Below, in pieces: positions 18,138-46,664 of a DNA stretch of 64,000 nt. A model generated the notes under the pieces. That model had not been told where the DNA came from and searched no databases. It worked only from the letters and a program-made list of their open reading frames with translations. Positions within the stretch are counted from its first letter, which is position 1. Every line of letters begins with the position of its first letter. The position numbers were made by a program, and so were the translations under genes. The stretch lies in IMG/VR virus record IMGVR_UViG_3300009514_000515, positions 22,576 through 86,575 of that record. The stretch is one strand, 5' to 3'. This stretch comes from a virus.

Positions 18138-19193
18138 CTAGACGAGGACTGCCTCTCCCTCTTCGTCCTCTACTGCGAGGAACATCCGAGGAAAACACAG
18201 AGTGGCCCGAAGAGACTGAAGCCCCTCCGTTTCAACGATGACGAGGTCGTCCTCCAGGAAGCACAATACCTTGACCGTCAGGCCCTTGAGACGACCCTCA
18301 ACAACTCGGGCCCGGTCTCCAATGCCGAGATCGCGAACACACAGACCACGCAGACTGACCCGCATGGACTCAATCTCTGCGTCAGAAACACAGTGGAGGA
18401 CTCGGATGCCGTTGGTCCCCACCGAGGACATGACCTGGTTGACATAGTTGGTCCTGGTCTCCAGGCTGAAATACTTGACCTCGGACAGGCCAGAGGCTAC
18501 GAACACGTACCCCTGAATCAAGGTCTTGGTCACGACACGGTCAGGGCGGTGGTAGGTCACCGCGGGCACGAAAATCAGGTGGCCCTCGTCGATGTCCAGG
18601 TCACGGCGAAGGGTGCTCTCCAGGGTCCCTTCCTCAACCCGGACCTCCCCCGCATGTCCCAGCTCGATGACGACCCAGGTTTGTCGGTCCCTAGGATCAC
18701 CCTTAGCTGTCTGGGATAGTTGCTCGGCGGTGTCTTCGAGAAGCCTCCCCGGAGTCGCCTTCTCGGGGACGGACTCGGCGAACTCCTCTGGCTGTCCATA
18801 AAGGTACTGAGACCTCTCGACCCCGTCCTCCGTCAGACCCCAAAGACCTCGGCCCAGACTCAAACAGAAAGAGGAGCGGCGACCAGAATACCTGACCGCC
18901 CTACCACTCTTGTGAGAGACTCTATCTGGTCGTTGGTTGCGGTGAGCCCACCCAATGACCCGGTAGAGGCCCAGAGGCTTAGATCCCCTCAAAGGCCACG
19001 GGCTATTCCGTGGGTCGATACCCACCTCCCCCAGAACCTCGTCAAGCACCGTCTGGTATGGAACCCCGACGTAAGCTGAGAACCCTGTCAGGCGACCGAG
19101 GACCTTGACCAGGGGATCAAAGAACTCCTGCGCCGTCGGACGTGGCCTCGACTGCTCCTGGGGAGCCTTGTCCTGAATCTCTGTCAATCCCAC
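18138..19193 (-). CDS. NusG-like antitermination factor with an extra N-terminal domain shared with 45237-46664
   Basis: About 351 residues. The C-terminal half looks like NusG: an NGN-type region with QGYVFVASGL, then a KOW motif GDRARVVEGRLKGLTVKV. The N-terminal ~130 residues (GVPYQTVLDEVL, SKPLGLYRVIGWAHRNQR, GLWGLTEDGVE) match the N-terminus of the sigma-like protein at 45237. Binding to host RNA polymerase is inferred from family. The start is uncertain: a GTG at 19193 or TTG at 19187 or 19220; all overlap the end of the gamma/tau gene. Confidence 0.7.
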   Translation of the reverse strand: MGLTEIQDKAPQEQSRPRPTAQEFFDPLVKVLGRLTGFSAYVGVPYQTVLDEVLGEVGIDPRNSPWPLRGSKPLGLYRVIGWAHRNQRPDRVSHKSGRAVRYSGRRSSFCLSLGRGLWGLTEDGVERSQYLYGQPEEFAESVPEKATPGRLLEDTAEQLSQTAKGDPRDRQTWVVIELGHAGEVRVEEGTLESTLRRDLDIDEGHLIFVPAVTYHRPDRVVTKTLIQGYVFVASGLSEVKYFSLETRTNYVNQVMSSVGTNGIRVLHCVSDAEIESMRVSLRGLCVRDLGIGDRARVVEGRLKGLTVKVLCFLEDDLVIVETEGLQSLRATLCFPRMFLAVEDEEGEAVLV

Positions 19194-20682
19194 CCTGCCC
19201 CACCGAACGCTGCATACCAAGCTCTAGAAGACGGCTGCGGAGCAGGGAACAGAACTCCCCTAATCCCATCTGGTCAGTCTCACCGGAGCCCGTCTGCTGA
19301 ACCTGAGGTGCTGGGGACGGGACCGGCTTGGAGACACTCGACTCTGCCTTGCCAACCGGACTCGCCCCGAAGCTATTTCGGTTCACCGCACGGGGATCAA
19401 CGTAGACTCCACCCTCGATGTACGTCTCGTCAGCCATACTGATGAGACGTGCAGAACCCTCTGACACCGTCACCGAATCTTCTCCGGAAACTTTCTCCGC
19501 AGAAGTTACATCCGGCTCCGAGTTTTCCAGAGAAGGGTGGGGTAGGTCAAGTCTTCTGTCAATAAGCACTGGAGAGGAATTCCTCGTTTCCAAAAGCGAG
19601 AAACAACCCCCCAAAAATTGGCGGTGTAGTAGGAACAGGTCACACTCCAACATCTCCCGAGTGGGTCGTCGGGGGCGGGAGGCGAGGGACTCACTTACAA
19701 GAAGGAGTCCGTCCCGATGTCTCTGTCCGATGCCGGTTAGTCTCTCGGAGTCCCAGTAGGTGGGGGCTTTCTCAACTGAGAGCGCCACCTTGAAGGCCAG
19801 GAGAGCCGCCTCGGACAGGCGCTTGTACAAAGTTGCTGGTGAAACTTTCTCCAGCAGAGTTTGGGTGGCCTGGAGGGACTTGGGGATGTCCGTCCCCAGG
19901 CCTTCGAGGATCTCAAGAACCAGTTCATTGAGGTCGTCCCCGAGGAGCTGACGGACGGACTCCAGGGTGATAGGACCTGGGAGTCGGGCGAGGCTCTCCA
20001 GGGATTTGATAGCGGCTCGAATGCCGCCCTCGGCCCCTTCAGCGATACGTAACAAGGCCTCGTCCTCGGCCTCGAATCCCTCCTGGTCACAGATGAAGCG
20101 CAGGCGCTCTGCAATCTTCTTCGGGGAGACGACACGGATGACGAACGTTGGCCCACAGCGGTTGGCCACCGTGTTCCGCATCTTCTCCGGCTCGGTGGTG
20201 CAGAAGATGCACGTCAGACGGCGACTCCCCGTCTCCTGGTCCGTGTCCTCCATGGGCTTCAGCAGAGCATCCATCGCGTCCTTGGAGAGCTGGTGTGCCT
20301 CGTCGAACAGGTAGAACCGCCGACGTCCTGAGAACGTGGCATACTCGATGTTGCTCAGGATGGAGCGAATGTTCTCCTTACCACTATTGGTGGCGGCATC
20401 GATTTCCGTGAAGGCATCCGAGACACCTCCCCGGAGAACCTCGACGCAAGAGCTGCACTGGTCGCAGGCCTCACCCCTGGCGGGAGACTCACAGAGAAGG
20501 GCCCTCGCCAGAATGCGACCAAGGGTCGTCTTGCCGGAACCGGACAGACCGGCGAAGAGATACGACTGGTGGCGGCCTTCCCCGCTCGCCACTATCTGGC
20601 GGAGCATCGTCTTGGTGTGCCCTTGACCAAGAACCTCGTCGTACCTCTTCGGCCGGTACTTGATGTCCAGCGGCTCCCCCAT
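19117..20682 (-). CDS. dnaX: DNA polymerase III gamma/tau-like clamp-loader ATPase
   Basis: 521 residues. AAA+ motor that opens the sliding clamp. Visible: KYRPKRYDEVLGQ N-terminus, Walker A GLSGSGKTT (45-53), a zinc site with Cys 64, 73, 76 and 79, Walker B FYLFDEAHQL, and sensor region IFCTTEPEKM. The C-terminal third is Ser/Pro-rich and low in conservation, so there is no obvious tau polymerase-binding domain. The start overlaps the previous stop (TAATG). With delta, delta' and beta clamp also encoded here, the phage seems to own a full clamp-loading system. Confidence 0.92.
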   Translation of the reverse strand: MGEPLDIKYRPKRYDEVLGQGHTKTMLRQIVASGEGRHQSYLFAGLSGSGKTTLGRILARALLCESPARGEACDQCSSCVEVLRGGVSDAFTEIDAATNSGKENIRSILSNIEYATFSGRRRFYLFDEAHQLSKDAMDALLKPMEDTDQETGSRRLTCIFCTTEPEKMRNTVANRCGPTFVIRVVSPKKIAERLRFICDQEGFEAEDEALLRIAEGAEGGIRAAIKSLESLARLPGPITLESVRQLLGDDLNELVLEILEGLGTDIPKSLQATQTLLEKVSPATLYKRLSEAALLAFKVALSVEKAPTYWDSERLTGIGQRHRDGLLLVSESLASRPRRPTREMLECDLFLLHRQFLGGCFSLLETRNSSPVLIDRRLDLPHPSLENSEPDVTSAEKVSGEDSVTVSEGSARLISMADETYIEGGVYVDPRAVNRNSFGASPVGKAESSVSKPVPSPAPQVQQTGSGETDQMGLGEFCSLLRSRLLELGMQRSVGQGGIDRDSGQGSPGAVEATSDGAGVL

Positions 20683-21191
20683 TACTCCTCACTCCCCTCG
20701 TCTTCAGAGGCGGACTCTTCCTCCTCGGCGAACAACTCCTCGATGGCCGAGGCACTTTCTTCGGCGGTGTCGTCCTCCGTATCGTACTTCATCCAGAAGC
20801 CGAAGAGCTTGATGTTCTCGTAGAACACCGAGGCGTCAGGAGGCCGCACGAAGTACCTCTCCGTCCCGTCCTCCTTCTCTTCAACCCCGCAGCAGCACAG
20901 GAGATGGTGCAGGGCGGCCATCTTGGTCTCGTCGGAGAACGTCAGCCACTCGTCGTTCCCGATCTCCAGGAGGAACACCAGCTCCCCTCGCTCCTTGGTC
21001 AGGGCCTGGATGACCGCCGACGCCTTCTTCGACTTCCCGAAGATGACCTGACCCCCGGACTTCGTCGCCTTCTCCTTGAAGAGAATGGCGATCTTGTCAT
21101 CGACAGTTGCCAAGTGAGGCAGGTGTTCCTTGATGATGTACTCCATCAACTCCCGGGTGGCTCCGGTTGCTTCCCAAATTTTCGACGACAT
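20682..21191 (-). CDS. Putative phage metallopeptidase-fold protein with degenerate active site
   Basis: 169 residues. The layout matches the putative phage metallopeptidase family (PF18894 as I recall it): AILFKEKATKSGGQVIFGKS, a central ExGNDEW segment, then a motif that is usually HELCHC. Here residues 96-101 read HLLCCC, so the catalytic Glu and second His are replaced. The C-terminal tail is highly acidic (EELFAEEEESASEDEGSEE). ATG at 21191 lies inside the end of the primase gene. Peptidase activity is unlikely; a binding or inhibitory role is possible. Confidence 0.7.
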   Translation of the reverse strand: MSSKIWEATGATRELMEYIIKEHLPHLATVDDKIAILFKEKATKSGGQVIFGKSKKASAVIQALTKERGELVFLLEIGNDEWLTFSDETKMAALHHLLCCCGVEEKEDGTERYFVRPPDASVFYENIKLFGFWMKYDTEDDTAEESASAIEELFAEEEESASEDEGSEE

Positions 21192-21870
21192 TGCGCCCTC
21201 CAATAGCGTGAGCAAATGCTTCGAGGAGGACCTCTCGTCCTCCTCGCTCCCAAATTTCGCCGGGGTCCTTGCCTCCGATATAGGCAACCTCCCGACACCC
21301 GATAGGTACGTCAAGTAGGTCCTTGATGGCCCTACTTGACCCGGAACGGCCAGCCTCGTCGTTATCGTAGACGACGTAGACGAATCTGGAAAACCGGCGA
21401 AGGAACTGGAGGTGACTGAATCCGAGACGGGCTCTTCCAGTGGCCAGGACGACCTCGGAGTGGGGAACCACCCACTCCATCGCGAAGAGATCGAAAAGAC
21501 CCTCGACCAACCAGACAACTCCGTGGACCCAAATCTGTTCGACCCCCTTCGCCGCCCCCAGAAACACGGGGTTCCACCGAGATTCCGGAAGGCGGAACTC
21601 GGTCTTCCAGTCACCCCGACGACCGATGAGCCCCAGAACGCGACCCTGGGGACACAGAAGCGGCGCTACGAGACACCCGTCCAATTTCTGGCCCCGAGAC
21701 CCGTATCTCTTCCGGAACTCCTTAGAGGGCGCGTCGCTTGGTGCTGTATCCCATGTCGTGAGCTGCATCCTCTGAAAAGAGTCGAACCTGGCTCCCCGGG
21801 CCAAAAGCATCTCCTCATGGTCGGGAGACAGCTCGCACGAGCCCAGAACACCACTCAACCATTCCCTCAT
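21097..21870 (-). CDS. DnaG-type primase catalytic core (TOPRIM)
   Basis: 257 residues. The TOPRIM signature is clear: catalytic Glu in VWLVEGLFDLFAMEW and the acidic pair in YDNDEAGRSG, followed by GGKDPGEIW. The preceding FRKRYGSRGQKLDG and WNPVFLGA match the DnaG core N-terminal subdomain. No zinc-binding domain or helicase-binding domain is present, so it is a minimal primase. It overlaps its upstream neighbour by ATGA and its downstream neighbour by 95 bp. It should make RNA primers for the phage replisome. Confidence 0.85.
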   Translation of the reverse strand: MREWLSGVLGSCELSPDHEEMLLARGARFDSFQRMQLTTWDTAPSDAPSKEFRKRYGSRGQKLDGCLVAPLLCPQGRVLGLIGRRGDWKTEFRLPESRWNPVFLGAAKGVEQIWVHGVVWLVEGLFDLFAMEWVVPHSEVVLATGRARLGFSHLQFLRRFSRFVYVVYDNDEAGRSGSSRAIKDLLDVPIGCREVAYIGGKDPGEIWERGGREVLLEAFAHAIGGRNVVENLGSNRSHPGVDGVHHQGTPASLGNCR

Positions 21871-22475
21871 GTCTCCTTGCCCTTCCTGCTCTTCTTCTTG
21901 AGTGAGCGGGGCGGTGTCTTGCGTGCCACCGAGATTCCTCGGACAGCGTTCTGGACAACGGCGAACATCCCCGAACTCCCGGCCAGGGTCACCATGCCCA
22001 CGAAGGATCTCTCCTTGGGCAGAGCAACGGCCGTGTACTCCGGAACCCACTCGGCGCCAACGACGGGGTAGTCACCGATGGTACCCCGCTTGAGATACCT
22101 CTTCCCCGAAAGGGGAGACACCAGAAGCTCGATGTCGCGAAGGCCAAAACTGGAGACGTAGTCTCCCGCCGCCTCCATCCCCTTGAGGGTGAACGGATGG
22201 GTGTTCCCGTACTCCAGCTCATGACCACGCTCAACGATGGCATCGATAACCAGGCAGAAAAAGGCCGCCAGGTCCTGGCCTGGCCTGACCCCTGCCCGTA
22301 CGGTCCCGTTCCCCAGGGGGCGTTCGTACCAATAGAGGGGGGTTTTTAGCGACACGTTGGTCGTCAGGATGGCATCGAGACGAGGGTCTACAGGAACGAC
22401 GACCGCGAGTGCTTGGGCACCCTCGCGGACGAACTTGGGGTCTCGGTACACAGACAGGAGCGGGTTGTCCATCAT
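21867..22475 (-). CDS. Conserved-type hypothetical protein of the replication cluster
   Basis: 203 residues, mixed alpha/beta, with a basic C-terminus (RKTPPRSLKKKSRKGKET). Notable segments are ALAVVVPVDPRLDAILTTN, THPFTLKGMEAAGDYVSSFG and GDYPVVGAEWVPEYT. I recognise no catalytic motif. Two adjacent ATG codons (22475 and 22472) are possible starts. It overlaps both neighbours by 4 bp, so it is co-translated with the primase; a replication-linked role is inferred from this alone. Confidence 0.7.
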   Translation of the reverse strand: MMDNPLLSVYRDPKFVREGAQALAVVVPVDPRLDAILTTNVSLKTPLYWYERPLGNGTVRAGVRPGQDLAAFFCLVIDAIVERGHELEYGNTHPFTLKGMEAAGDYVSSFGLRDIELLVSPLSGKRYLKRGTIGDYPVVGAEWVPEYTAVALPKERSFVGMVTLAGSSGMFAVVQNAVRGISVARKTPPRSLKKKSRKGKET

Positions 22476-23206
22476 TCCTCCGTCGCCTCTCGGCGCCAGA
22501 ACATGAACCAGACCAGCACGCGACGCCACCAAGGTAGGGCGTAGTGAGCCAAGGAGTAGTTCGTCTCCACGATGATCCCACTCTCTTGGGGGTCCCCTAC
22601 CTCTCCACCGCTAGAAGTAGAAGCCGATACAGAATCGGACTGGCCACCTTCAACACCCAGATCAGAAACTGGAACAACATCGTCTACCTCGTCTTCGGGG
22701 ACTTCTGACCCCTCGTCTTCGTCATCGTCCTCCCCGTCACCTTCGACCTCTCCGGGTTCCTTCGGGGAGGCCTCCTCGTCAACAGAGGCCACAGCCTCCG
22801 AGGCGACGGGACCATCGTACAAGACCCAAAGCAGAGAGCCGACGTCGGGGTACTCGGCCACCAAAGGACCCATCTCCCCGTCCCTGGCTCTATTTAGGAG
22901 GTCCTGCATATGGAGGACGAACTGGCCTTTTGCCTCATCCTTGGTCAATCGGGACTCCAAATGAGGACACCCCTTCGCTGTCGAGAGACACTCCGGCATA
23001 TCATCGTCGCAGACAACGACGGACCACTTCACTCCCTCCGGCGGAGTGAACCGACACACCCCGACCTCCTTTCCGGAGACCGAGGCGACCCTGTCGTTGT
23101 GCTTGCATCGGCAAGGAACACGACGGAAGTTATCCTTGAGGACCTTACTCTGGTGTCTCCAGATGACCTGCTGAAGCTTGCGTCGGACCTTGCCTTCGCT
23201 CTTCAT
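22472..23206 (-). CDS. Hypothetical protein with N-terminal cysteine cluster and acidic C-terminus
   Basis: 244 residues. The N-terminal ~85 residues are basic and contain six cysteines (PCRCKHN, VCRF, VVCDDDMPEC, GCPHLESR), suggesting zinc or iron-sulfur binding. The middle is very acidic (EGDGEDDDEDEGSEVPEDE). A hydrophobic aromatic stretch (WWRRVLVWFMFW) lies close to the C-terminus and might touch a membrane. Overlaps the stop of the split-Rad50 gene upstream. Function unknown. Confidence 0.65.
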   Translation of the reverse strand: MKSEGKVRRKLQQVIWRHQSKVLKDNFRRVPCRCKHNDRVASVSGKEVGVCRFTPPEGVKWSVVVCDDDMPECLSTAKGCPHLESRLTKDEAKGQFVLHMQDLLNRARDGEMGPLVAEYPDVGSLLWVLYDGPVASEAVASVDEEASPKEPGEVEGDGEDDDEDEGSEVPEDEVDDVVPVSDLGVEGGQSDSVSASTSSGGEVGDPQESGIIVETNYSLAHYALPWWRRVLVWFMFWRREATEE

Positions 23207-23868
23207 CTCTGAACCTCGTTCTCCAGGGTGAACTTCGCCGTGTCCTTCCTGGCTTGACGAACCCGGTACGACCTGTGAGACGCGTCCACGAACGTCTGGT
23301 TGTGTGTGATAATGAGGATATCCAAACCCAAACGATCACACAAAGCCACCAGGAACCGGCCCATGTTTGTAGCGTAGCGAGGGTCGAACGCCGGCAAGGC
23401 CTCGTCGAGGAGAAGGAACCTCCTCATATCACGCTTCGCCAGGATAAGCACTCGCAAGAGTACCGACTCGACCGTGGTCACAGAGCCGCCGAACGCCTCG
23501 CGACTGATTCCCTTCTGGACAGCACCGTCCGAGAGGGTCTTAGTCGTCACCAAATCAACTGCGACCTTGCCGCGCTCGACGGCGACCCGCGTCTCAACAG
23601 ACAACTCCTGGTCGTCAAACACCGCCTTGAGGGCCTCGGATTGGAGCCCCTCAAGGGTGGTCACGGCATCCTTGATTTCGGCGTCGATGAGACTCCGGAA
23701 CAGGGCACTGACGTGCTCCAGGACGGACTCCTCGTCACGAAGCTCCTCGACCTCTTTGTCCACTCGGCGAAGACTGGCCCGGAGCGCAGAGCGGCGTCCC
23801 TGGGCCCTACTGAAGTGGGTCTTGAGGGAGTCCAGGTCCGGGAGTTCTGGTAGAAGGGACATCATCAT
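23203..23868 (-). CDS. C-terminal ATPase half of a split Rad50/SbcC-like protein
   Basis: 221 residues. After about 85 residues of coiled coil come the ABC signature region REAFGGSVTTVESVLLRVL, Walker B FLLLDEALPAFD and a switch histidine in ILIITHN. These are the C-lobe elements of SMC/Rad50 ATPases. There is no Walker A; that lies in the separate gene at 27303-28553. The coil is short and has no zinc hook. Overlaps the stop of the sliding-clamp gene. The two halves probably assemble into one ATPase that works with the SbcD-like nuclease. Confidence 0.85.
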   Translation of the reverse strand: MMMSLLPELPDLDSLKTHFSRAQGRRSALRASLRRVDKEVEELRDEESVLEHVSALFRSLIDAEIKDAVTTLEGLQSEALKAVFDDQELSVETRVAVERGKVAVDLVTTKTLSDGAVQKGISREAFGGSVTTVESVLLRVLILAKRDMRRFLLLDEALPAFDPRYATNMGRFLVALCDRLGLDILIITHNQTFVDASHRSYRVRQARKDTAKFTLENEVQR

Positions 23869-25019
23869 CCCGCCTTGGCCGATACCCAGGACAGGACGGT
23901 GAGCCGTTTGCTATCCCCGATCTCCTCGCAGAAGGAGACCCACCCTCCCTTGTTCTGGGAGGAGACACCCATGACCACCCTGTCGCCAGAATACTGGCTC
24001 ACGATCTTGGTGAGATACTCGTAGTTGAGGGTGAACCCCTTGTCTGGGAGGGTGCCTTCGGCGGTGTTCTCTTCCAGCTCCAGAAGAGGGACTGAAAGGG
24101 ACACCGTATCCCCGGTGGCCGACACCAGGCTCATCTCGATGAAGGACCCTTCGACGCGATAGGTCGACCTCCTCCAGTTGTCCTCGTAGTTGGCACTGCT
24201 CGACAGAATGTCCAGGGCGGTTAGCATCTCGGACTTGTCGAACGTCCACTTCTGGTGAGCGTTCGAGAAGGCTGACGCCACTCGACCCATCTTGGGGAAG
24301 TCCTTGCCCTGACGCTCACTGCCGAATAGACGGCCGTCGGGGGACCGGAGGAAAAAACCCCGACTGTGCTCGTAAATTTCGACTTCGCACCCGACCACGT
24401 CGAGAAATTTACAGGACTTACCGATCTCACGTCCGGGGACTCGGAGGCTGGACTCCTCCATGCCGGGAACGGTGACGCGGACGCAGGACGCCCCGTCGGT
24501 TGCGAGAAGCGCTCCGCCCCGGAACTGGCAGTTGCAGAGGTGGGGCTCCATCGTCTCGTTCTTCGAGACGAAGTGCTTGGCGTACCCAAGGGCGGCGGCC
24601 AGGTCGGATGACTGAATCTTGGCCGTCGTCTTGGCCTCCTCCAGGGTCTTGTCCCAGAAGGGGAAGGAGGTCGGGTCCTTCGATCGGAACTTGACCGACC
24701 CGCGAGGGCTCGTGGCCTTGACTACACCCCGGTGGTGTTCGAACACTAGGGCCGAGTCATCGACGGCCCCCACCCATCGACGCAGGCGCTTCGACTCAAT
24801 GGTGAACTGGTTATGCCGATTGTCGTCATCCAGGCCTTCGACACGACAAATCATCGGAGATCCCGAGAAGAAGCTCTCGTTGTAGCTCAGGACCTCGATC
24901 TCTCCGTCGACGTGACGAAAGATGAAGTCGGCGTTGATGTTGTCGCCGCTGGCCGCGACGGTGTTGCTTGTAATTGCGAGAGCTGACTCCAAGTCGCTCT
25001 TTGCCACTGTGACCTTCAT
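23865..25019 (-). CDS. dnaN: DNA polymerase III beta-type sliding clamp
   Basis: 384 residues, the usual length for bacterial beta clamps (about 366-380). N-terminus MKVTVAKSDLESALAITSN, middle LAAALGYAKHFVSK followed by an ATDGASCVRV strand, and late SGDRVVMGVSSQ all follow the three-domain beta-clamp pattern. It forms a ring that tethers the polymerase to DNA, loaded by gamma/tau, delta and delta' also present in this window. It lies in an overlapping operon with recombination genes. Confidence 0.85.
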   Translation of the reverse strand: MKVTVAKSDLESALAITSNTVAASGDNINADFIFRHVDGEIEVLSYNESFFSGSPMICRVEGLDDDNRHNQFTIESKRLRRWVGAVDDSALVFEHHRGVVKATSPRGSVKFRSKDPTSFPFWDKTLEEAKTTAKIQSSDLAAALGYAKHFVSKNETMEPHLCNCQFRGGALLATDGASCVRVTVPGMEESSLRVPGREIGKSCKFLDVVGCEVEIYEHSRGFFLRSPDGRLFGSERQGKDFPKMGRVASAFSNAHQKWTFDKSEMLTALDILSSSANYEDNWRRSTYRVEGSFIEMSLVSATGDTVSLSVPLLELEENTAEGTLPDKGFTLNYEYLTKIVSQYSGDRVVMGVSSQNKGGWVSFCEEIGDSKRLTVLSWVSAKAG

Positions 25020-25303
25020 GTGTCTCCTTCGATGAAAGGGGCCAATTCGGCCTCCACTGCCTCAACCTCTGCGACGGCGGCCTCGACCTTCTCTCGGTAC
25101 GCCTTGTGAAGTTTAGCCAGGAACCCGTCGATGTTGTCGGGGTCGATGTTCTTCTCCCGGCACTTCTCGCGGAGCTGCTGCATGTTCTTGCGAGACTGCT
25201 CCAGAGCCCCAGTCTTGCGGTTCTTGATTGCCTGAAGCTCCTCGCGACGCTTGGCTGCCGCGTGAAGTCGGTCGTGTAAAGAACTATGTGCTGACGCTGC
25301 CAT
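25016..25303 (-). CDS. Small coiled-coil protein
   Basis: 95 residues, almost entirely coiled coil with a break at KCREKNIDPDNID that contains a single cysteine, then a second helix. It overlaps the clamp gene start by 4 bp. Its place between the clamp, Cas4-like nuclease and split Rad50 genes suggests it is an accessory of that machine, perhaps standing in for part of the missing Rad50 arm. That is speculation. Confidence 0.6.
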   Translation of the reverse strand: MAASAHSSLHDRLHAAAKRREELQAIKNRKTGALEQSRKNMQQLREKCREKNIDPDNIDGFLAKLHKAYREKVEAAVAEVEAVEAELAPFIEGDT

Positions 25304-25333
25304 TCCTCTACCTCATACTGTCGGTCGGCGGAC

Positions 25334-26329: not shown

Positions 26330-26331
26330 GG

Positions 26332-35137: not shown

Positions 35138-35583
35138 CAGCTCTTGCCCCGGAGCTTCACTAGAAGATCGCGTAGAGCAGTCGCTCTTTGCTGCAACGCT
35201 TCCACCTTCCCCGTCCCACCCCGATCTCGGTCCCGGAGATGGGCCACCACTACCTGTGAGTGGTGACCCTCCAGGAAAAGTAGGGGTACTTCGACGTCTT
35301 GGATGAACCAACGCCGACCATCCCTGCTCAGAACTCCTATCTGAGTGAACAACAGAAGCTCCGCTGGCTCCTTATGGTGTCCCGCCGGACACTCTGAAGG
35401 CTCCCAAAGACATGACCCCTGACCCCAACGCTTCGTCTGAGGAGGGGCTGGAGGCTGATGACATACGTGGACCGCCACCCGACGGCCTTCATAGCCTGCC
35501 ATGAGTTCGGTCACGTTGACGTCAGTTCCGTCTTCCTGAATGAGGATGTTGCCCTCTTCGAGGAAGGCAACACCGCTCGCCAT
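35137..35583 (-). CDS. Hypothetical small protein, first gene after promoter copy 2
   Basis: 148 residues with an acidic N-terminus, two cysteines in SCLWEPSECPAGH, and a basic helical end (RATALRDLLVKLRGKS). The ATG at 35583 lies 38 nt downstream of the TATATA of the promoter motif and after a GGTGTCC region. No family recognised. It heads the transcription unit containing the RecD-like helicase. Confidence 0.6.
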   Translation of the reverse strand: MASGVAFLEEGNILIQEDGTDVNVTELMAGYEGRRVAVHVCHQPPAPPQTKRWGQGSCLWEPSECPAGHHKEPAELLLFTQIGVLSRDGRRWFIQDVEVPLLFLEGHHSQVVVAHLRDRDRGGTGKVEALQQRATALRDLLVKLRGKS

Positions 35584-35620
35584 CGACACTCTCGGCTCCA
35601 AGGGACACCTCCTCAACCCG

Positions 35621-35651
35621 TATATACGACATTGGAGAGGAAAGTGGACCC
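35621..35651 (-). promoter_or_regulatory. Recurrent phage promoter motif, copy 2
   Basis: Minus strand GGGTCC, 14 nt, TGTCG, TATATA; same 31-nt span as the other copies. It lies just outside the IS1182 element and drives the small gene ending at 35137 and the RecD-like helicase. Confidence 0.7.
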
Positions 35652-35679
35652 CCTTAACCTAGAAGTGAAGAACCTTGAG

Positions 35680-38007
35680 GCCGTCGTAAAAAGCCTGGTG
35701 TGACGTACGAGCACTCGAATTCTGCCTCCGAGATCATTCGGTATCGCATCTCGCTCCTTCCTGCCACCTCTGCTCCTTCTCTGCCATGTTGAAAGAGCTG
35801 TCACGTCACAGGACCACGACGACTCAGTCGACCGGCCTTCACACTGCCAGAGCCGCTGTCGATCCGTTTCGTAGTTGCTCGAGACCGTGGAACACCGCCC
35901 GCTTCACGTTCAGTGAGAGTATCTTGAAGTGCGCCGAGAGATTCACCCTCTCCCTCCCTCGAACTCTCAGATTTCCACCGCCGTGCCGCCCCTTGAACTC
36001 ATGATTTGTGGCCTCGATCGAACTCCGCGCTCGGTACTCGTCTTTGAACGCCCCCGTCTGTTGCTCCACCTGTCGCACTGCAGTAGCGAGTTGATGCGGT
36101 CCGCGTCGGAGCGTCCGCCGTCCATCGCTGAGCTTTCGCGTCGGGCAGAGCCCTGCAAGTCCGCACTCAGCGCATGCCTCGGCCCCGAATGTGGCGGTCA
36201 GGCCCCGGCGATGTTGGGTCTGCTCCACTGGGCGGTGTCCTGTTGGGCAACTCTCTACCAGCTCGAATGTCGAGCTGAAGGCGAACTCTGCAAGTTCGAG
36301 GTCCTCATCAGTCCCATCACTATATTCTCTGCTTTCCGGTCGCATCGTGGTTTCGTCGAACGGGTCGCGGCGACTCTCACCCTTGTGCGGATCACGAACT
36401 GGCGCGACCAATCGCACTCCCCTCTTCGCGCTGTTCACGATATTGGCACCGCTTCCATACCCAGTGTCTGCGAGGATTTCAGTCGGCGACATCTGGTCCC
36501 GTTCCAGCTGGTTGAGCATCGGAATCAGCGCTTTCTGGTCCGACTCGTGCGCGCCGTTGAGCGCTACTCCCGTCACCAATTGATAGGGGTTGCCACCAGC
36601 ACAGGTCTCGCTGAGCTGAAGCTCATAGCCTTTGCCCTTGTGGCCATATGTCGCATCCAAATCGTGGGGGCTCTGCAGCGAAGTGCTTTGCACCGTCTCT
36701 GGGTCCCGAAGTTGGACTCGACGAGTTCGTCCACTCCGACGGCCGAGCTTGCGTCGATTCTTTGCCTTGCGCTTGGGCTTGCGGGACAGCGGGCTTGCCT
36801 CACTCCCGCCCAATCCGGCTGCGTCGGCCTCATCGGCCTCGTCGGCCTCGTCGGCTTCGTCGGCTTCGTCGGCCTCGTCGGCTTCGTCGGCTTCGTCGGC
36901 CTCGTCGGCTTCGTCGGCTTCGTCGGCCTCGTCGGCTTCGTCGGCCTCGTCGGCTTCGTCGGCCTCGTCGGCCTCGTCGGCCTTGTCGGCTTCGTCGGCC
37001 TTGTCGGCTTCGTCGGCCTCTTCGGCCTCGTCGGCCTCGTCGGTGAACTCACTCACCTTGGCCTCCGGCTCGGACCGGGAGCGGACTTTTACGGGGTCAA
37101 CCGTGCCCGCAGAGCCGGCGCAACCACCTTCATCGTACGGCTCATCGATGAGTTCGCACTGCTCCTCGAAGAGCCGAACCAGGAGCGAATAGGCTCCAAG
37201 CGTCGACACGAGCTCGTCGCCTCGGAACATCTCGATCAGCTCATAGAGGTCCTGCGCAACGATCCCGAGACGCCGCTTGGCTTGGCTGCGTTTGGCGTCA
37301 CAGAAGTAGCCCTCGCGGTCGAGATACCGCTTGAGAGTGATCGGCTCCAGGACCGAGAGTCGCCCAGGCGTCTCCTTGCGGACTTCGCGCAGGAATTTCG
37401 AGATGGTCTCGACGAAGAGCGTCAGTCGCGAGAGCACCGCGATGTTGGACATGATGTGAGTCGAGTCGAGCCGCTGGAGTGCCCAGGAGACGCCATCGGC
37501 CTCAGCGAGGGCGCGTGTCAGCTGGGCAAACATAGTCTCCACACGGTCGTTTTTGGCGGCACGGACGCGGAAGTTGTGCAGGCTCTTCTGGCAGCTGTGG
37601 GCGGACTCAGGCTCGACAGCCAGCGCGTAGTGCCACTGGAGATTGTACTCCAGCTGCTCCAGGACTTGCTCGTCGGTCAGGTCATTGAGCTCCTTGAGCA
37701 AGTGCAAACTCACCAGAAGACGGATAGACATATTGGGGCGGCCCGTCCCGTCACTGAACGCACTCCGGAAGACCAGCTCGTCGATGAGCGGAAGCACAGT
37801 GTGGCGGAAGACATGGGCCCAGGATTCCTTCAGGCGCTTGGTCTTCTTCGGCGAGAGAAGATACTGCGCTTCGAGAAGAGAGAGTTGGGGGTCGGTCTCA
37901 CGAAACATCGTTCACTCCAGCATCGGTCGGTCTCCTTCGAGGATCTCACAGTGAGCTCGTCGGGTCGATCCCTGATCAACCGGCTGGCGACTTTTTACGA
38001 GGGTCTC
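35680..38007 (-). mobile_element. IS1182-family insertion sequence
   Basis: 2,328 bp. The ends carry imperfect inverted repeats: CCGTCGTAAAAAGCC at 35681 and, on the other strand, CCCTCGTAAAAAGTC at 38003 (13 of 15 match). The 9-bp AACCTTGAG flanks both sides (35671-35679 and 38008-38016) as a target duplication. Removing the element and one repeat rebuilds a longer end for the ribonucleotide reductase gene. One transposase gene is inside. Confidence 0.85.
35839..37908 (-). CDS. IS1182-family transposase with a long Ala-Asp-Glu repeat insert
   Basis: 689 residues. N-terminal domain with [20 protein letters not shown] and [15 protein letters not shown]-like text, catalytic DDE-type core with [12 protein letters not shown] and [14 protein letters not shown], and C-terminal [20 protein letters not shown]. 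Between the domains is a run of about 30 ADE/ADK tripeptides, encoded by 9-bp and 6-bp direct repeats from about 36820 to 37050. Such loops vary in this family but this one is unusually long. The frame is intact, so transposition could still occur. Confidence 0.9.
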
Positions 38008-40192: not shown

Positions 40193-40264
40193 GGATTCCT
40201 CTGAAACAGAGCCGGATTGAAGCAAAAATAAACCCCCACTACCGGCACTCGCAGGGGAATCCAC

Positions 40265-40287
40265 CCTTAGTTTTTGAACCACTAAGG
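40265..40287. other. Perfect 7-bp hairpin between delta-subunit and reductase genes
   Basis: CCTTAGT and ACTAAGG flank a 9-nt loop, about 35 nt after the delta-subunit stop in the other direction of transcription is not the case: on the minus strand it lies downstream of neither a stop nor a U-run but in the reductase leader (40193-40321). It may be a leader structure; no terminator tail is seen. Confidence 0.35.
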
Positions 40288-40321
40288 ACGAGGTATCGAA
40301 CGCCTATCATCCCCGCTACCA

Positions 40322-41305
40322 CTAGCGCGTACCGATCTCACGACAGGCCCTCAGGAGACCTGCACAGAATCTGAGCCAGGGAGACACGCTGCCCTTGAGG
40401 ACACCCCTCTCGGCCCGTCTCAGGGTTCCCATAAGCTCGAAAAGACGACGACGGCTCCACCGCTTCGCGACGGGCAGCAACTTGTTCTTGTGATACCAGG
40501 AGTTGAGGTTGAGATCGGAGGCTGCTTCCCCTGGTGACACCCCCTTCTCGTGTAGATCAGCAACGGCCAACCACTTGGTCAGCGAGGGATACATGAACCC
40601 GACGACTTTCATCGTCGGGTCTCCTGGGTGAGTACGCCCGACCCAGGAGAGCTGACGAGACACCCGGCGCACGTTCGCCGTACCGACGGCGTCAATAAGG
40701 GGCTGCACCCCTGAGGCCTCGACCTGGGAGACAACACCCCAGACGTGCTTCGTCGTGGCTTCCTCCTCTCCTCGGGCTTCCAGGAGGGTGCAGAGCTTGA
40801 ATACCTCCCAGTGCAGAATCCCGAGGTTGGGACCGACGACGCTCACCAGTATCTCGGCCGCCTCCACAGGAAGACTCTTGCCCCTCTCCTTGGTCTCCTC
40901 GACACACATGCGGACGGCATCGTCAGGCTGCTTGAAGAACGGTGGCAAAGCGAACCGCTGATGGAGACTCTTCGGAAGGACTGTCACCAACTTCGCGAAA
41001 GTCCCTGACTTCTTCGGGGCACCCTCATTGACCACAGCCAGGGTGACCCCCGGCTGTGGGTCGTGATAGTGGTCGAGGATAGTGTCCACGTCGGCCTTGT
41101 CCGGTTGACTGACCAGGACCAGCTCCTTGCTCTCGAACAGCACCGACCCGGAGATGGCGTTCACGAGGTCGAGGTGGTCGCCCCCCTCGACCCAGGTCAC
41201 CTGGTAGCCCTCTGACAGAAGGCCTCTCTCCAGAGAGAGGACGGCCTGGCGCCGGCGATACTCGTCCGTCCCCGAGAACAGAACCACAGGAAACTCACGA
41301 GCCAC
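40322..41305 (-). CDS. holA: DNA polymerase III delta-like clamp-loader subunit
   Basis: 327 residues. N-terminal VVLFSGTDEYRRRQAVLSLE, then VSQPDKADVDTILDHYHD and AVVNEGAPKKSGTFAK reproduce the delta subunit pattern (nucleotide-fold without Walker A), followed by a helical collar domain. GTG start at 41305 chosen for the GAGG site 6 nt upstream; it overlaps the delta' end by 11 bp. Delta contacts and opens the beta clamp. Confidence 0.8.
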   Translation of the reverse strand: MAREFPVVLFSGTDEYRRRQAVLSLERGLLSEGYQVTWVEGGDHLDLVNAISGSVLFESKELVLVSQPDKADVDTILDHYHDPQPGVTLAVVNEGAPKKSGTFAKLVTVLPKSLHQRFALPPFFKQPDDAVRMCVEETKERGKSLPVEAAEILVSVVGPNLGILHWEVFKLCTLLEARGEEEATTKHVWGVVSQVEASGVQPLIDAVGTANVRRVSRQLSWVGRTHPGDPTMKVVGFMYPSLTKWLAVADLHEKGVSPGEAASDLNLNSWYHKNKLLPVAKRWSRRRLFELMGTLRRAERGVLKGSVSPWLRFCAGLLRACREIGTR

Positions 41306-41927
41306 GGAACACCTCACAGGCGCTGAGGAGGGCGTGAGAGACGCCTATCTTGGAGGGGTTCGTGAAGGCCATCTCCGGCCGAAGACGTTCCCAAACCGCC
41401 AGGGCAGAGAGGTCTCCCTTCTGAAACCTCTCGGACACCTCACGAGCCACTCCGTCCCCGAGAGCCCTGAGGTCTTTCGAGTCCCTTACCAGGCGGGAGA
41501 TGAGGTTGAGATCGTTGGTGGTGACTGCGTCCACGAGCTGTACCGCCCTGACCTCCACCTCCTTATCGAGAACAGTCCTGTCCCCTCCTTTCCAGACACA
41601 GAGACAACGGTTCACGATGGTCTCACGAACCTCCGAGAGGTCGTTAGCCCAGAGGATGGGGAAGGTGCCCTCGGGGTCTATCTCCTCGATGGACTTCAGG
41701 AGGACGTCACAGGACTTGTCATTGGCCAGGTCCATAGGACCTAGCACCAGGACGCCGCGCCTCTCCCCGATAGTTCTCGTCGAGAGGATGCGAACGGCCT
41801 CTCGGGCTTGGGCAACGCGCAACCCATCCTCTCCCATCGGAGGTGCCATGGGGCGACCCTCCCGGGCTTTCTCCAGCGCACCACCCTGGGCGGCTGGACC
41901 ATGAAAGAGGTAACACGAACTCTCCAT
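41295..41927 (-). CDS. holB: DNA polymerase III delta'-like clamp-loader subunit
   Basis: 210 residues. AAA+-like but without a P-loop, as in delta': GVLVLGPMDLANDKSCDVLL and EEIDPEGTFPILWANDL, then ETIVNRC corresponding to the sensor/arginine region. The ATG at 41927 follows AGGGA and lies about 30 nt after the promoter motif; an alternative ATG at 41951 would leave almost no leader. Pairs with delta and gamma/tau to make a complete loader. Confidence 0.75.
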   Translation of the reverse strand: MESSCYLFHGPAAQGGALEKAREGRPMAPPMGEDGLRVAQAREAVRILSTRTIGERRGVLVLGPMDLANDKSCDVLLKSIEEIDPEGTFPILWANDLSEVRETIVNRCLCVWKGGDRTVLDKEVEVRAVQLVDAVTTNDLNLISRLVRDSKDLRALGDGVAREVSERFQKGDLSALAVWERLRPEMAFTNPSKIGVSHALLSACEVFRGS

Positions 41928-41958
41928 CTTCCCTGATCGGTTGGCGGGCATCCTTGCT

Positions 41959-41989
41959 CTAGTACGACACCGAGGGCGTCAGAGGACCT
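41959..41989 (-). promoter_or_regulatory. Recurrent phage promoter motif, copy 3
   Basis: Minus strand AGGTCC, 14 nt, TGTCG, TACTAG, with the same spacing as the other copies. It overlaps the stop of the small zinc-ribbon gene and precedes the clamp-loader delta' and delta genes. Confidence 0.65.
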
Positions 41990-42194
41990 AGTGTCTCACG
42001 GTGAAGGTCCGGTTGCAGGTCAGGCACCTGTAGCGGGCTCGTCGTCCGGAGTATCCGAACTCGCCAATCACGTCAACGTCATTCTCGACAACAACATACC
42101 GCCCCTCACAGTCCTTGGCGGCCTTGCAAGGGAACAGGAGCTTCTTCGAGGAGTCGACGGGGCGTTGCCGAACCTTGTCGCTTTCGATGGTCAT
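41988..42194 (-). CDS. Small zinc-ribbon-like protein
   Basis: 68 residues. Cys pattern CKAAKDC near the middle and RYRCLTCNRTFTVRH at the end, i.e. C-x5-C and C-x2-C, a likely zinc ribbon. Such small proteins often regulate transcription or translation. It overlaps the upstream gene by ATGA. Function not known. Confidence 0.65.
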   Translation of the reverse strand: MTIESDKVRQRPVDSSKKLLFPCKAAKDCEGRYVVVENDVDVIGEFGYSGRRARYRCLTCNRTFTVRH

Positions 42195-42754
42195 GGAACG
42201 TAACTCTCTGGGAGGAACCCGGCGTCGACGAACGAACGGCGCAGAGCGGACTCGATGCCTCGAATATACTCGGGGAACCTGCCCGGATTCAACATCGCCT
42301 GGTTGATGGGGAGACTGGCGTCGAACGCATCATCCTCCAACACCGGCACCACGCCGAACTTCCAAATCCTCCAACCCGACTGCACAGGGAAGATGTTCCG
42401 ATCTCCAGAACGAATGAGAGGGCGGTTCGTCTGATCAATCCGAACCACAGGAGATTGAGAACCTCGTCGCGTCTTCGGGAAGGTCGGAGTCGCCGACCCC
42501 ACCAGGATGTAGGCACACCCCAGAGCCAAGACCGAGAGCCCCAAAGCATCTCCCGTGAACGTCGGCAGGTCCTCCGGCTGTATGACCTGGTTGCCGTTGA
42601 CCCCCTCGACACCTCCCAGAAGAGCCTCGGGACCCATGGGCACCAGACCGATGCGTTCCTCTCCCGTTGGAGGAGGGGGGTTCTTCTTGAACCCCTGTTG
42701 ACTCGGGACCCGCCTGTTTGGATGACAGCTCTGCTGCTTGATGTTGAACGGCAC
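42191..42754 (-). CDS. Hypothetical protein downstream of the iteron region
   Basis: 187 residues, Pro- and Gly-rich N-terminus, globular C-terminus (GWRIWKFGVVPVLEDDAF). GTG start 42754 with a GGGGGGAG site upstream. It is the first minus-strand gene after the 42.8-43.6 kb gene-poor region. No motif recognised; an origin-linked role cannot be judged. Confidence 0.6.
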   Translation of the reverse strand: MPFNIKQQSCHPNRRVPSQQGFKKNPPPPTGEERIGLVPMGPEALLGGVEGVNGNQVIQPEDLPTFTGDALGLSVLALGCAYILVGSATPTFPKTRRGSQSPVVRIDQTNRPLIRSGDRNIFPVQSGWRIWKFGVVPVLEDDAFDASLPINQAMLNPGRFPEYIRGIESALRRSFVDAGFLPESYVP

Positions 42755-43572
42755 TTGTTTCTCCCCCCAATTTTCGGGGCAATTGTTTCAACTTTGTTCT
42801 AGTTTGCCCTAGTCCGCACCACCCCTAGAGTTCCCCGAGAGGGAAAGTTACGAAACTTTGTTTGCGAAAGTTTGAGAAAGTTTGAGAAAGTTTGAGAAAG
42901 TTTGAGAAAGTTTCACCACACCGAAGCTGAGAGGGCGCAGGTGCCCCTACCCCATGGCGTCGATAGCCTTTCTAGGCTTGCCAGGGGCTGCTCCCGATTA
43001 GGTTCCCGTAGAGGTCTAGGTTCTACCTGTTACTCGTAGGGTTGATACCATAAGGGAGAGTATCTGCCGTCTTATCGAGGACTGAGGTTGCGATTCCACC
43101 AGTTTGAGCGGTTTCAGTCGTGTTCGATGAAGGTGAAGCGTTGAGGTCGGTGTTGGTGGGTTGGGTAGCGACATCGGTAGTTTCACTACCTCTGTCCAAC
43201 CTATTAGAGGTTAGTAGAGATAGAGAACTCCGATGACGGCGGTTCTGGTCTTCCTGTGCTCTGCTCCTCGGCACTGACCAGGTACGCCCAAACCCTTCTC
43301 GCTCCTGTCGGGGCAACCTCTGGGGTTGAGCCTGTCGGGAGGAGGGTAGGGTCTCGTCTGAGTGCTTTCGGGAACCTCGATGGTCTCTGGTGGCTACTTC
43401 GGAAGTGTCTCTTTTCGCCTCGACCAACTACTCGCTCCCCAACCCCAGCATGCAGCCCGTAACATAGGCACTCGTCGTGCCCCCTCAGAGGTCCTGTTAG
43501 GCTCTCTGAAGGACGCCCTCAATAGAGGGAGGGGTTGAAGCCTCGGAGGGTAGTCCGAGGTCTCTCAGGCTG
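42755..43572. other. Longest gene-poor region, candidate replication origin or control region
   Basis: 818 bp without a convincing gene between the hypothetical gene at 42191 and a virion-type gene at 43573. It contains AT-rich tracts, the 10-bp iterons described separately, and several short inverted repeats. An open frame at 43023-43427 (minus) lacks a ribosome site and reads as low-complexity Ser/Thr text, so I do not call it. Confidence 0.6.
42861..42913. repeat. 10-bp iterons, helically phased
   Basis: Four perfect copies of TTTGAGAAAG (42871-42910), preceded by one variant TTTGCGAAAG and followed by TTT. The exact 10-bp period places each copy on the same face of the helix, as in replication-initiator or regulator binding arrays. 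An inverted relative (GAAACTTTG) lies just before them at about 42853. Confidence 0.9.
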
Positions 43573-44979
43573 TCAAGGGAGGTTCTCAGGCGTCGACGTC
43601 AGGATGGGCGTCGACCATCTTCCGGAGCTTGGCGTAGTAGCGGTCGAGGTGCTTGATGACCTGGGCCGAGGTGCTTGATGACCTGGGCGGGAGCGCATCC
43701 AGTCTCGTCGGAGGCTGGCTTTCCAGTCGGAACCGACGGCGTCGGCATAGTCACGGATGGCTTGGAGTTGCTTTGCGTTGGGTTGCCTTCCTGCTCGGCG
43801 TCGACGCTGGAACGCGGCCCGGATACGCTGACGGCTGTAGGCCTCCTGCTTGTGCAGGAACGACTTCCAGGCCTGCTGGACGTCTCCCGGGGCCGAATCC
43901 ATGATGGTGTCGATGCCCTGGCTGGCGAGCCACTTGCGGACGGTCTGCATGCGAGAGTCGACGAATCGACGGTCGATGACCTCCTCTCCGGCCTCCAGGC
44001 GGTCGGCGATAGCCTGGCCTCGGGAACCGCTATTGCGCAGGATGCGCAGGACAATCGGAAGACGCTCGTTGACGATGCCCCTGGACCGGGCGGCAACCTG
44101 GTCGACAAACCCGCCCGAGGGACTTGGGTCCGTGGCTCGGGCGACCTCCAGGAACGCCTGCATGATGAGGCCGTTGATGAGGTTGCGCTCCTTCACCAGG
44201 CTGACGATGTAGCCGAGCATCGTCTCCGCGTCGTCTTTGACGTGCTTGCCGGGGAAGAGGATCATGTCGGCTGTGATCTCTTCCTTGGTGGCCGAAGGCA
44301 TCGCGGTGGACCACACGCTCTCGTCACTGTCGTCCATGACGAGGCCAGATACCTCCTCGGAGGCACGGGCTCGCTCCATCTCGCGGATGTACTTGCCGGC
44401 GGCCTGGATAGCCCAGCGACGCAGACGACCAATGAGGTTCTTGTTCTGGGGCGTCGAAGAGCCCTCCAGAATGGGGGCGACGGCCTTCTGGTCGTTGTTG
44501 CCTGCGTAGTGGAACAGGCTCGCCCATCCCATCTTCCTCTTGGCGCCCATGACCATCTGCTGGGCCACGTCGTCGTAGTCGGCGTAAGGGTGCTGGGCGA
44601 GCATGCCGCCTACCGGCTCCATCACGTAGGAGAAGAATCCGGTGTTGCGAGAACTCAGCCACCCCTTGTTGTCCGTCAGGGCGCCCATGTCGGCGAAGGG
44701 GTACTCGGCCTCGACGGCCTTGCCGGCTTGCTTCAGGCCCTGGCCAGGATGGCCTCGTCGAGACCACTCGTATGGGCGTCCGAGAACCCCCTCGATGTAC
44801 TGAAGGCGAGCCAGCATGTCGAGCTGGCTCTCCAGGACCGCCTTGACGTGACGAAAGGCCACGCGCCGAGCGACCTGTTTCTGGGGGCTTGCTTCCTTCT
44901 GGCGGAGGGATGCCTTGAGGCGGCGATACGTGCTGAACAACACCTGCATATGGGGATTCAGCGGAATCTGGCGGTCCAT
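43573..44979 (-). CDS. Helical virion-type protein, C-terminus frameshifted by a duplication
   Basis: 468 residues as read. Predominantly helical with a central section TDNKGWLSSRNTGFFSYVME and the charged middle GKYIREMERARASEEVSGLV. No catalytic motif. ATG 44979 follows AGAGGAAA. The last ~35 codons are out of frame: the neighbouring frame carries AQVIKHLDRYYAKLRKMVDA and stops at about the same place. A 22-bp tandem duplication (43645-43688) and one more base change account for this. The intended C-terminus is probably the latter. Confidence 0.65.
   Translation of the reverse strand: MDRQIPLNPHMQVLFSTYRRLKASLRQKEASPQKQVARRVAFRHVKAVLESQLDMLARLQYIEGVLGRPYEWSRRGHPGQGLKQAGKAVEAEYPFADMGALTDNKGWLSSRNTGFFSYVMEPVGGMLAQHPYADYDDVAQQMVMGAKRKMGWASLFHYAGNNDQKAVAPILEGSSTPQNKNLIGRLRRWAIQAAGKYIREMERARASEEVSGLVMDDSDESVWSTAMPSATKEEITADMILFPGKHVKDDAETMLGYIVSLVKERNLINGLIMQAFLEVARATDPSPSGGFVDQVAARSRGIVNERLPIVLRILRNSGSRGQAIADRLEAGEEVIDRRFVDSRMQTVRKWLASQGIDTIMDSAPGDVQQAWKSFLHKQEAYSRQRIRAAFQRRRRAGRQPNAKQLQAIRDYADAVGSDWKASLRRDWMRSRPGHQAPRPRSSSTSTATTPSSGRWSTPILTSTPENLP
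43645..43688. repeat. 22-bp tandem duplication near a gene 3' end
   Basis: Positions 43645-43666 and 43667-43688 are identical. The 22-bp step shifts the reading frame of the surrounding gene. Confidence 0.95.
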
Positions 44980-45144
44980 GCTTTCCTCTCGGTCCAGGTA
45001 CTCCCGGTGAAACAACTACAGGGCAGGTGATATAGTCAAACGAACGCGTCGAAAACCCCGGTGGAAACCAGGCCGAACTTCCCCCGAAACTTTTTCTAGA
45101 GCCGCCTTGACAGGGGGTTCTAGATCGAAGTAGCGTCGTGGACA

Positions 45145-45183
45145 GGCTGCGGTCTTGACCGAAGACCGTCCGTTTCCGCAGCC
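45145..45183 (+). promoter_or_regulatory. Structured leader upstream of the plus-strand sigma-like gene
   Basis: Two overlapping perfect stems: CGGTCTT/AAGACCG around a 5-nt loop and an outer GGCTGCGG/CCGCAGCC. The two share bases, so alternative pairings are possible, as in attenuators. A TTGACA lies at 45107 with a weak -10 after it. It sits 54 nt before the ATG at 45237 in the only long non-coding stretch between divergent genes (44980-45236). Confidence 0.55.
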
Positions 45184-45236
45184 TACCGTATCCGCTGAGG
45201 CTCTTTGAGCCCAAGTGACAAACGAGGTTATACGTC

Positions 45237-46664
45237 ATGGCCAAATTGAGCCAGAAGTGGTTTCGTGACCCTGTTGTTCTCGCGCTCGGCGAGCTGTGTG
45301 ACTTCGAGCCCGGTATAGGCATCCCAAGACGTGATGTCGTGGACCGTGTTCTGGAGAACACGGACATCGATGAGATGGCCGAGGGCTACTCCCCGAGTAA
45401 GAAGAGCAAGCCCCAGATCGCGCTCTGGATTGAACATGCCTTTCGGAACCAACGAGGAGGCAGGTACAACAAGAGGAACGCCAAAACCATCTCCATCGAC
45501 CCTGCCAACTGGCGGACACACGGTGGCCTCTGGGGGCTCACTGAGCTGGGTGTTCGCAGGGCTTTGGAATTGGCCGAAGCGAACCCCTCGTCGGGTAATG
45601 GCGGCGGAGGTAATGGCGGCGGAGGTAATGGCGGCGAAGGTAATGGCGGCGGAGGTAATGGCGGCGGAGGCTTGTCCGAGACCGTCGAGACCGTCGAGGA
45701 AGAGGTCCCGCTCCTCGTCGTCGAGCCCGATACTGAGGAGGACGGCCACCTATTCAAGGTCGAGGAGCCCGTCGTCGAAGATCCGGTCGAGGAGCCGGTC
45801 GTCGAAGAGCCGGTCGTCGAAGAGCCGGTCGGGGTCGAGACGATCTTTCCCGTAGTCGAGCCCGACATCACCGCCGAAGATATCGAGGTGGTCCCCGGCG
45901 TCGCCGAAGAGATTGCTCACGAACTGGCCCAAGACGAGGTGGTCTGTCAGACGGAAGAGACCATCCGCATCGTCGAGGAGGAGCCGGAGACACCGTCCAC
46001 GAACCTGACTGGACAGTACCTCGGGGACCACTGGGAGGAGTGCTGGAGCACCATGCTCGCGGCCGTGCGTAAACGCTGGAAGCGCTCTGACGATCTAGGC
46101 CTGGTCGAGGACCACGTCTCGATTTACGTCACCAACCTCATCAATCGGGACGGCCTGCGCAAACACATCCTGGACCCCGAGTTCAAACTGTCCTCTCGTC
46201 ACCTGGCTTTCTGGTGTGCTCAGGACTGCGTCAGCCAGCAACATCGGTGGGGCAGGGACCCGAGCGCCAGGACCCTGCGCAACGCCAAGACTCGATTCGA
46301 CCTGAACAACAAAATCGATGCCCGCATCGACCCGGACCTTTCCGGTCGGTTCGTCTGGAACACCGACCGAGGGATTCAATCCTTCGCCATCGTCGACAAC
46401 GCGCACGAGGCCATGCTCGACCATCTCTCGATGAAGGAAGCCATGGGGAAGATGGAGGATATCATCCACGACAATATGAAGTCCGGAGCGGCTGAGCGCT
46501 ATGTCTCTATCCTCCGAAGCATGGTCGAGGACGAGTGTTCCATCGTCGACGTCGCCGAACAGGAGCAGGTCACCCGCAATCGCGCCGCCAGCATCATAGG
46601 GACTCTGCGTTCCCTTCTCCGCGGTGCGCAGCGAGTCGGCTACCTTGAGGGCTACCTCAACTGA
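45237..46664 (+). CDS. Sigma-factor-like protein with N-terminal domain shared with the NusG-like protein
   Basis: 475 residues, one of few plus-strand genes. N-terminal ~115 residues (GIPRRDVVDRVLE, ALWIEHAFRNQRGGRYN, GGLWGLTELGVRRALEL) match the N-terminus of the protein at 18138. Then a GNGGGG repeat linker, an acidic VEEPVVEEPVV repeat, and a C-terminal part resembling sigma factors: VEDHVSIYVTNLINRDGLR, WCAQDCVSQQHRWGRDPSAR, and an HTH in CSIVDVAEQEQVTRNRAASI. Likely a phage-specific initiation factor; sigma assignment is moderate. Confidence 0.7.
   Translation: MAKLSQKWFRDPVVLALGELCDFEPGIGIPRRDVVDRVLENTDIDEMAEGYSPSKKSKPQIALWIEHAFRNQRGGRYNKRNAKTISIDPANWRTHGGLWGLTELGVRRALELAEANPSSGNGGGGNGGGGNGGEGNGGGGNGGGGLSETVETVEEEVPLLVVEPDTEEDGHLFKVEEPVVEDPVEEPVVEEPVVEEPVGVETIFPVVEPDITAEDIEVVPGVAEEIAHELAQDEVVCQTEETIRIVEEEPETPSTNLTGQYLGDHWEECWSTMLAAVRKRWKRSDDLGLVEDHVSIYVTNLINRDGLRKHILDPEFKLSSRHLAFWCAQDCVSQQHRWGRDPSARTLRNAKTRFDLNNKIDARIDPDLSGRFVWNTDRGIQSFAIVDNAHEAMLDHLSMKEAMGKMEDIIHDNMKSGAAERYVSILRSMVEDECSIVDVAEQEQVTRNRAASIIGTLRSLLRGAQRVGYLEGYLN

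Follow-up and report, generated by a model that had tools for sequence, protein, structure and literature searches.

Two putative transcription factors encoded by a single virus, a NusG-like protein and a sigma-like protein, begin with a homologous domain that is most likely a winged helix, distantly related to the DNA-binding N-terminus of Mrr. Their genes lie in a stretch of 64,000 nucleotides (hereafter the window), which comprises bases 22576-86575 of the 86.6 kb IMG/VR virus record IMGVR_UViG_3300009514_000515. Sequence comparisons suggest that the domain is the usual front end of extracytoplasmic function (ECF)-type sigma factors in the clade of huge phages concerned, and within the collection searched only the window's phage has it fused to NusG. 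On balance, we favor the view that in this lineage a sigma-borne DNA-binding module was fused to NusG, tethering the elongation factor to sigma-like DNA sites.

Homology of the two N-terminal domains

The two genes are composed as follows (evidence in brackets).

18138..19193, minus strand: NusG-like gene with an N-terminal winged-helix fusion (translation; NusG/KOW by Pfam, PHROG, and PDB profile)
18795..19139, minus strand: predicted Mrr_N-like winged-helix domain of the NusG protein, in the order H1-H2-H3-E-E-H4 (homology, AlphaFold pLDDT 83, Mrr match)
18696..18794, minus strand: linker between the winged helix and the NusG body (matches neither the NusG family nor the domain profile)
18141..18695, minus strand: NusG body (NGN and KOW), with orthologs in related phages whose NusG lacks the domain (alignment; profile similarity to bacterial NusG and to the KOW of Spt5)
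45237..46664, plus strand: ECF-type sigma-like gene (sigma70 regions 4 and 2 in relatives; fold matches to sigma factors)
45237..45593, plus strand: predicted Mrr_N-like winged-helix domain of the sigma-like protein (homology, AlphaFold model)
45594..45989, plus strand: low-complexity linker of the sigma-like protein, with NGGGG repeats followed by an E/V/P-rich part (sequence; predicted largely disordered, pLDDT mostly <50)
46005..46280, plus strand: sigma region-2-like helices (alignment, model, Sigma70_r2 in relative L016)
46398..46637, plus strand: sigma region-4-like helix-turn-helix (Sigma70_r4 in 6/16 relatives; model)

Both open reading frames (ORFs) exist as proposed in the first-pass annotation, although the minus strand of the NusG-like gene had been left unstated. 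The latter ORF ends with a stop at 18138 and starts either with GTG at 19193 or with TTG at 19220; the minus-strand interval 18138-19220 contains 360 open codons, and stops interrupt plus-strand translation of 18138-19193. The C-terminal assignments made in the same annotation, NusG/KOW in one protein and sigma70-type regions 2 and 4 in the other, also hold.

The N-termini of the two proteins, which share a domain of approximately 115 residues, show 36% identity over 110 amino acids (BLASTP E 1e-13, phmmer 41 bits). Their Smith-Waterman score is 126, compared with a mean of 28 and a maximum of 59 among 5000 shuffles, none of which reached it, thus ruling out chance similarity. A hidden Markov model of 28 relatives, from which the two window rows had been excluded, matched exactly two proteins among window ORFs of at least 80 amino acids, namely the NusG-like and sigma-like proteins (E 7e-28 and 3e-22), whereas 1000 shuffled copies gave no match; in the entire 86.6 kb record, these two copies of the domain were the only ones found. 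The common N-terminal domain that had been proposed from the sequence is therefore confirmed by BLASTP, shuffles, and profiles, and the motifs quoted in its favor are present in the forms VGVP/GIGIP, VLDEVL/VVDRVL, SKP...RNQR, and GLWGLTE-D/L-GV. Profile comparison, one of the checks suggested at that stage, gave a clear match, with a profile lacking the NusG copy aligning to residues 23-145 of the NusG protein at 99.3% probability (E 5e-20), and structure prediction, the other check, yielded the same order of secondary structure elements in both domains.

Nature of the shared domain

The AlphaFold model of the NusG copy, based on a 30-row alignment, is arranged as helix-helix-helix-strand-strand-helix, with a mean predicted local distance difference test (pLDDT) score of 83 and values mostly >90 in the helices, and the model of the sigma copy shows the identical order. 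The 30-row domain profile matched residues 2-89 of Escherichia coli Mrr (hhalign 96%, E 3e-9; HMMER 30.5 bits), and Pfam Mrr_N (PF14338) matched 11 of the 30 domain members, near the full profile length in several (best E 1.6e-5). Hence, the domain, called unfamiliar in the first-pass annotation, is related to a known one and that description was in part wrong. In PMC12707154, the N-terminus of E. coli Mrr (EcoKMrr) is presented as a binding domain of the winged-helix type. Across the segment that runs from H3 to the wing, 29 of the 30 domain members have a net positive charge, which amounts to +9 in the window NusG copy. From the profile, the predicted fold, and the basic charge we infer that the shared domain binds DNA; judged from sequence and model comparisons, it is most likely a winged helix distantly related to the Mrr DNA-binding N-terminus.

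No credible match to the domain was obtained in a sequence-profile search of PDB, where hits to ribosomal S24 and HopQ were taken as chance, and the W-LTE-GV pattern retrieved no relative from the bacterial and archaeal genomes scanned.

The sigma-like protein and other carriers of the domain

The sigma-like C-terminus alone gave no Pfam match. Sigma70_r4 was recognized in 6 of 16 relatives (E 2.6e-5), the window protein remaining below the threshold, and Sigma70_r2 in relative L016 only (E 0.0012, below the cut-off). With few exceptions, the nearest structural neighbors of the sigma-like model were sigma factors, ECF SigL and SigW among them, none with E <0.001; for the whole model compared with ECF SigL, the probability was 0.99 and E was 0.012. 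Judged from these alignments and models, the window protein is most likely a sigma70-type factor with regions 2 and 4, connected to the N-terminal domain by a largely disordered linker. No other large gene was recognized on the plus strand of the window. The gap 5' of the sigma-like gene (45016-45236), beyond which lies a divergently oriented neighbor, contains the hexamer TTGACA, which would be consistent with expression by the host sigma70.

43573..45015, minus strand: conserved gene divergent from the sigma-like gene, marking sigma orthology (related divergent neighbor in several related sigma loci)

A scan of IMG/VR for the domain using only the two window copies found nothing, and orthologs were reached instead through the NusG, sigma4x2, and sigma bodies. 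When the domain profile was run on 40 whole records of the clade, the domain was detected in 15 of them, at 27 places. Sigma-like proteins carry a single copy (L093, L094, L095, L099, L102, L117, L015, and L016), two copies (L097, L098, L101, and L107), or three tandem copies (L019:5242-7095 and L020:5242-7095), and L096 comprises the domain and little else. A second, cysteine-rich family carries one domain (L103:916-1818, L104, L105, L109, L111, L112:991-1818, L114, and L121, the last from record G010), followed by C..CP/I...C and C-terminal CxxC...HxxC motifs, with neither a sigma nor a NusG part; it often shares a genome with a sigma carrier. The sigma orthologs L037:1486-2424 (record G006) and L003:4634-5770 (LR745208.1) lack the domain and begin instead with repeats of approximately 30 residues of the LGG..A.NPL type. 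A related, divergently transcribed neighbor supports the orthology of several of these sigma genes. Since orthologs carry one to three domains or the LGG..A.NPL repeats in their place, the sigma N-terminus appears to be an exchangeable module, of which, to judge from the sequences compared, the winged-helix domain is the usual form in this clade.

The NusG fusion and its gene cluster

Matches of the NusG body to Pfam NusG and KOW were weak in the window protein and stronger in a relative (NusG E 6.9e-6). The body also matched PHROG 6386, annotated as 'transcription antiterminator' (E 5e-5), and its profile aligned across bacterial NusG (8ehq, E 1.4e-4) and Spt5 KOW, in the order NGN then KOW. 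A search of IMG/VR with the NusG body yielded 55 loci, some of them on near-identical contigs, in records of up to 619 kb. In all 56 loci, including the window, the gene order is DnaX-like, NusG, and a protein with two sigma-region-4-like segments, the genes usually overlapping or nearly so. In the window, the two flanking genes are the following.

17494..18198, minus strand: sigma-region-4-like protein with a second helix-turn-helix-like segment and no winged-helix domain (Sigma70_r4 E 4e-11; SigF match)
19117..20682, minus strand: DnaX-like clamp-loader gene overlapping the NusG start (Pfam; 5' of NusG in 56/56 loci)

At most 50 residues precede the NusG body in the 55 other loci, compared with 175 in the window (stop-to-stop frames). 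The suggestion that the domain is general to NusG of the clade was rejected, as 55 of the 56 NusG loci lack it. The sharing of a domain between NusG and sigma factors noticed in the first-pass annotation therefore applies to this phage but is not general, the domain belonging to the sigma-like proteins of the clade.

The adjacency of a clamp loader to transcription factors (17494-20682) recalls the clamp-dependent late transcription of T4, which we mention as an idea only. The DnaX of LR745208.1 (L003:13182-15068) bears an intein-like insert, unlike that of the window.

Proposed mechanism and alternative explanations

If a sigma-borne module indeed tethers NusG to DNA, the sigma-borne winged helices would add promoter or template contacts beside those of sigma regions 2 and 4. 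A copy of the domain would have been fused onto the phage NusG, whose gene elsewhere lacks it, and the body of the fusion protein would travel with the host RNA polymerase. The RNA polymerase beta subunit (PF00562) was found in none of 14 large relatives, whose records may be incomplete, whereas controls were found in 14/14; the phages thus probably use the host enzyme. The winged helix of NusG would bind phage DNA sites that are the same as, or similar to, those of the sigma factor, and the elongation factor would in this way be loaded or enriched on polymerases started at phage promoters. The strict form of this scheme, in which both copies read the same sites and couple initiation to elongation, is hypothetical. 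A broader version, in which a common DNA-address module on sigma and NusG loads the phage elongation factor at phage promoters and possibly reads modified phage DNA, is proposed only tentatively.

Several observations weigh against tethering through DNA, the main caution being that the NusG fusion is known from one contig. The scores for Mrr_N (best about 24-27 bits) fall under the Pfam gathering cut-off of 29.5 bits, and the domain is accordingly named Mrr_N-like and not filed as a formal member of the family. Foldseek searches of PDB and BFVD with the domain model alone returned nothing significant; the top, non-significant rows were mostly winged-helix DNA-binding domains. Winged helices can bind proteins too. 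In a crude search, no shared upstream motif stood out from shuffles. Furthermore, the NusG copy has 31-36% identity to the sigma copy in the window and 46% to that of L093; its closer relatives are thus sigma-borne domains of other phages, and the two window copies consequently need not read the same site. Judging from these identities, the NusG copy may derive from a different phage, or the sigma copy of the window may have drifted; as the domain tree is poorly resolved, with 2 of 27 branches well supported, we leave the donor unnamed.

The first-pass annotation had instead envisaged a docking domain, that is, a protein-binding winged helix through which sigma and NusG would attach to the host RNA polymerase or to a phage factor common to both. 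The domain is indeed carried by two polymerase-associated factors, and winged helices of the transcription machinery often bind proteins. Its nearest known relative, however, is the DNA-binding domain of a nuclease, and the tandem copies and the cysteine-rich carrier that is neither sigma nor NusG fit DNA binding better. In addition, its absence from the sigma orthologs of G006 and LR745208.1 and from 55/56 NusG loci indicates that it is unneeded for contact with the polymerase. We found no support for docking, since the profile, fold, and basic charge all point to a DNA-binding winged helix, and we consider such a role unlikely. What had been said about steering both initiation and elongation is plausible through DNA, but the route through RNA polymerase docking is left without support.

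A functionless accident of recombination or assembly would account for the presence of the NusG fusion in one contig only, and chance transfer predicts that the NusG copy should resemble the sigma-borne domains of other phages over the window's own, as it does. Nevertheless, the fused ORF is intact, both flanking genes keep their ancestral order and overlap, the guanine-cytosine content of the domain, also at third positions, is near that of the NusG body, and the core W-LTE-GV and the basic helix are retained, which makes an accident rather improbable.

Least probable in our estimation is that the domain reads modified phage DNA, marking self templates for sigma and NusG: it is related to Mrr, which responds to methylated DNA (EcoKMrr acts on 6mA/5mC DNA in vivo; PMC12707154), the window encodes an N6/N4 methylase adjoining a Res-like protein, and N6_N4_Mtase occurs in 12 of 14 large relatives, but with such a frequency the window methylase does not discriminate, methylases being common in large phages and hence unspecific.

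Other genes in the window

The N6/N4 DNA methylase and the adjoining ResIII helicase-like protein (10005-14199) resemble a type III Mod-Res pair. A DDE transposase ORF (35839-37908) contains a long mid-protein tract of EADEAD-type repeats, and an ORF for an SNF2-type helicase of 1748 amino acids (47884-53130) contains a LAGLIDADG intein-like insert. A phage-encoded Cpn60/TCP-1 chaperonin-like protein is located at 56523-58133.

Comparison with known systems

The phage domain arranges its helices and wing as Mrr_N of EcoKMrr does, carries the same F..P.L..L and RG-W-LT-G signature, and matches Mrr_N significantly by profile; it differs in scoring below the Pfam cut-off and in having longer loops around H3. 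In Mrr, the Mrr_N domain sits on a PD-QxK nuclease, whereas the phage domain sits on sigma and NusG; a PD-QxK nuclease domain was found in neither window protein, the C-termini being NusG or sigma.

The two-part helical C-terminus predicted for the phage sigma-like proteins matches that of ECF-type sigma70 factors, which possess regions 2 and 4 only (e.g., SigW and SigL). The phage proteins differ by an additional N-terminal winged helix or array of them and by low sequence similarity, and the window copy also by its long linker. The sigma factors of jumbo phages (minimal helix-turn-helix, RpoD-like) and T4 gp33 are likewise phage-encoded and, according to the part of a survey covered here, recruit the host polymerase (PMC7824862). 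In contrast, that part of the survey mentions no winged-helix arrays on sigma, and the word NusG is absent from the survey as a whole (PMC7824862). Arrays of winged helices on phage sigma factors, and a NusG joined to such a domain, represent new versions of factor types already known; these fusions are not described in the open-license literature searched, outside which most subscription papers lie. The many sigma factors with one to three Mrr_N-like domains form a natural series in which promoter sequence can be set against how many domains a protein carries and of which kind, and this makes the coupling idea directly testable.

The NGN and KOW body of the window NusG is common to the NusG/Spt5 family and RfaH-like paralogs, from which the protein differs by its N-terminal domain of the predicted DNA-binding type. 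The known extra domains of NusG proteins, such as DII of Thermotoga maritima NusG and the multiple KOWs of Spt5, differ in kind (PMC7819879). If our interpretation is true, a DNA-binding-type domain carried by NusG itself and also present on a sigma factor of the same genome would represent a new way to join promoter choice and elongation. Specialized NusG proteins are aimed by DNA elements through polymerase contacts.

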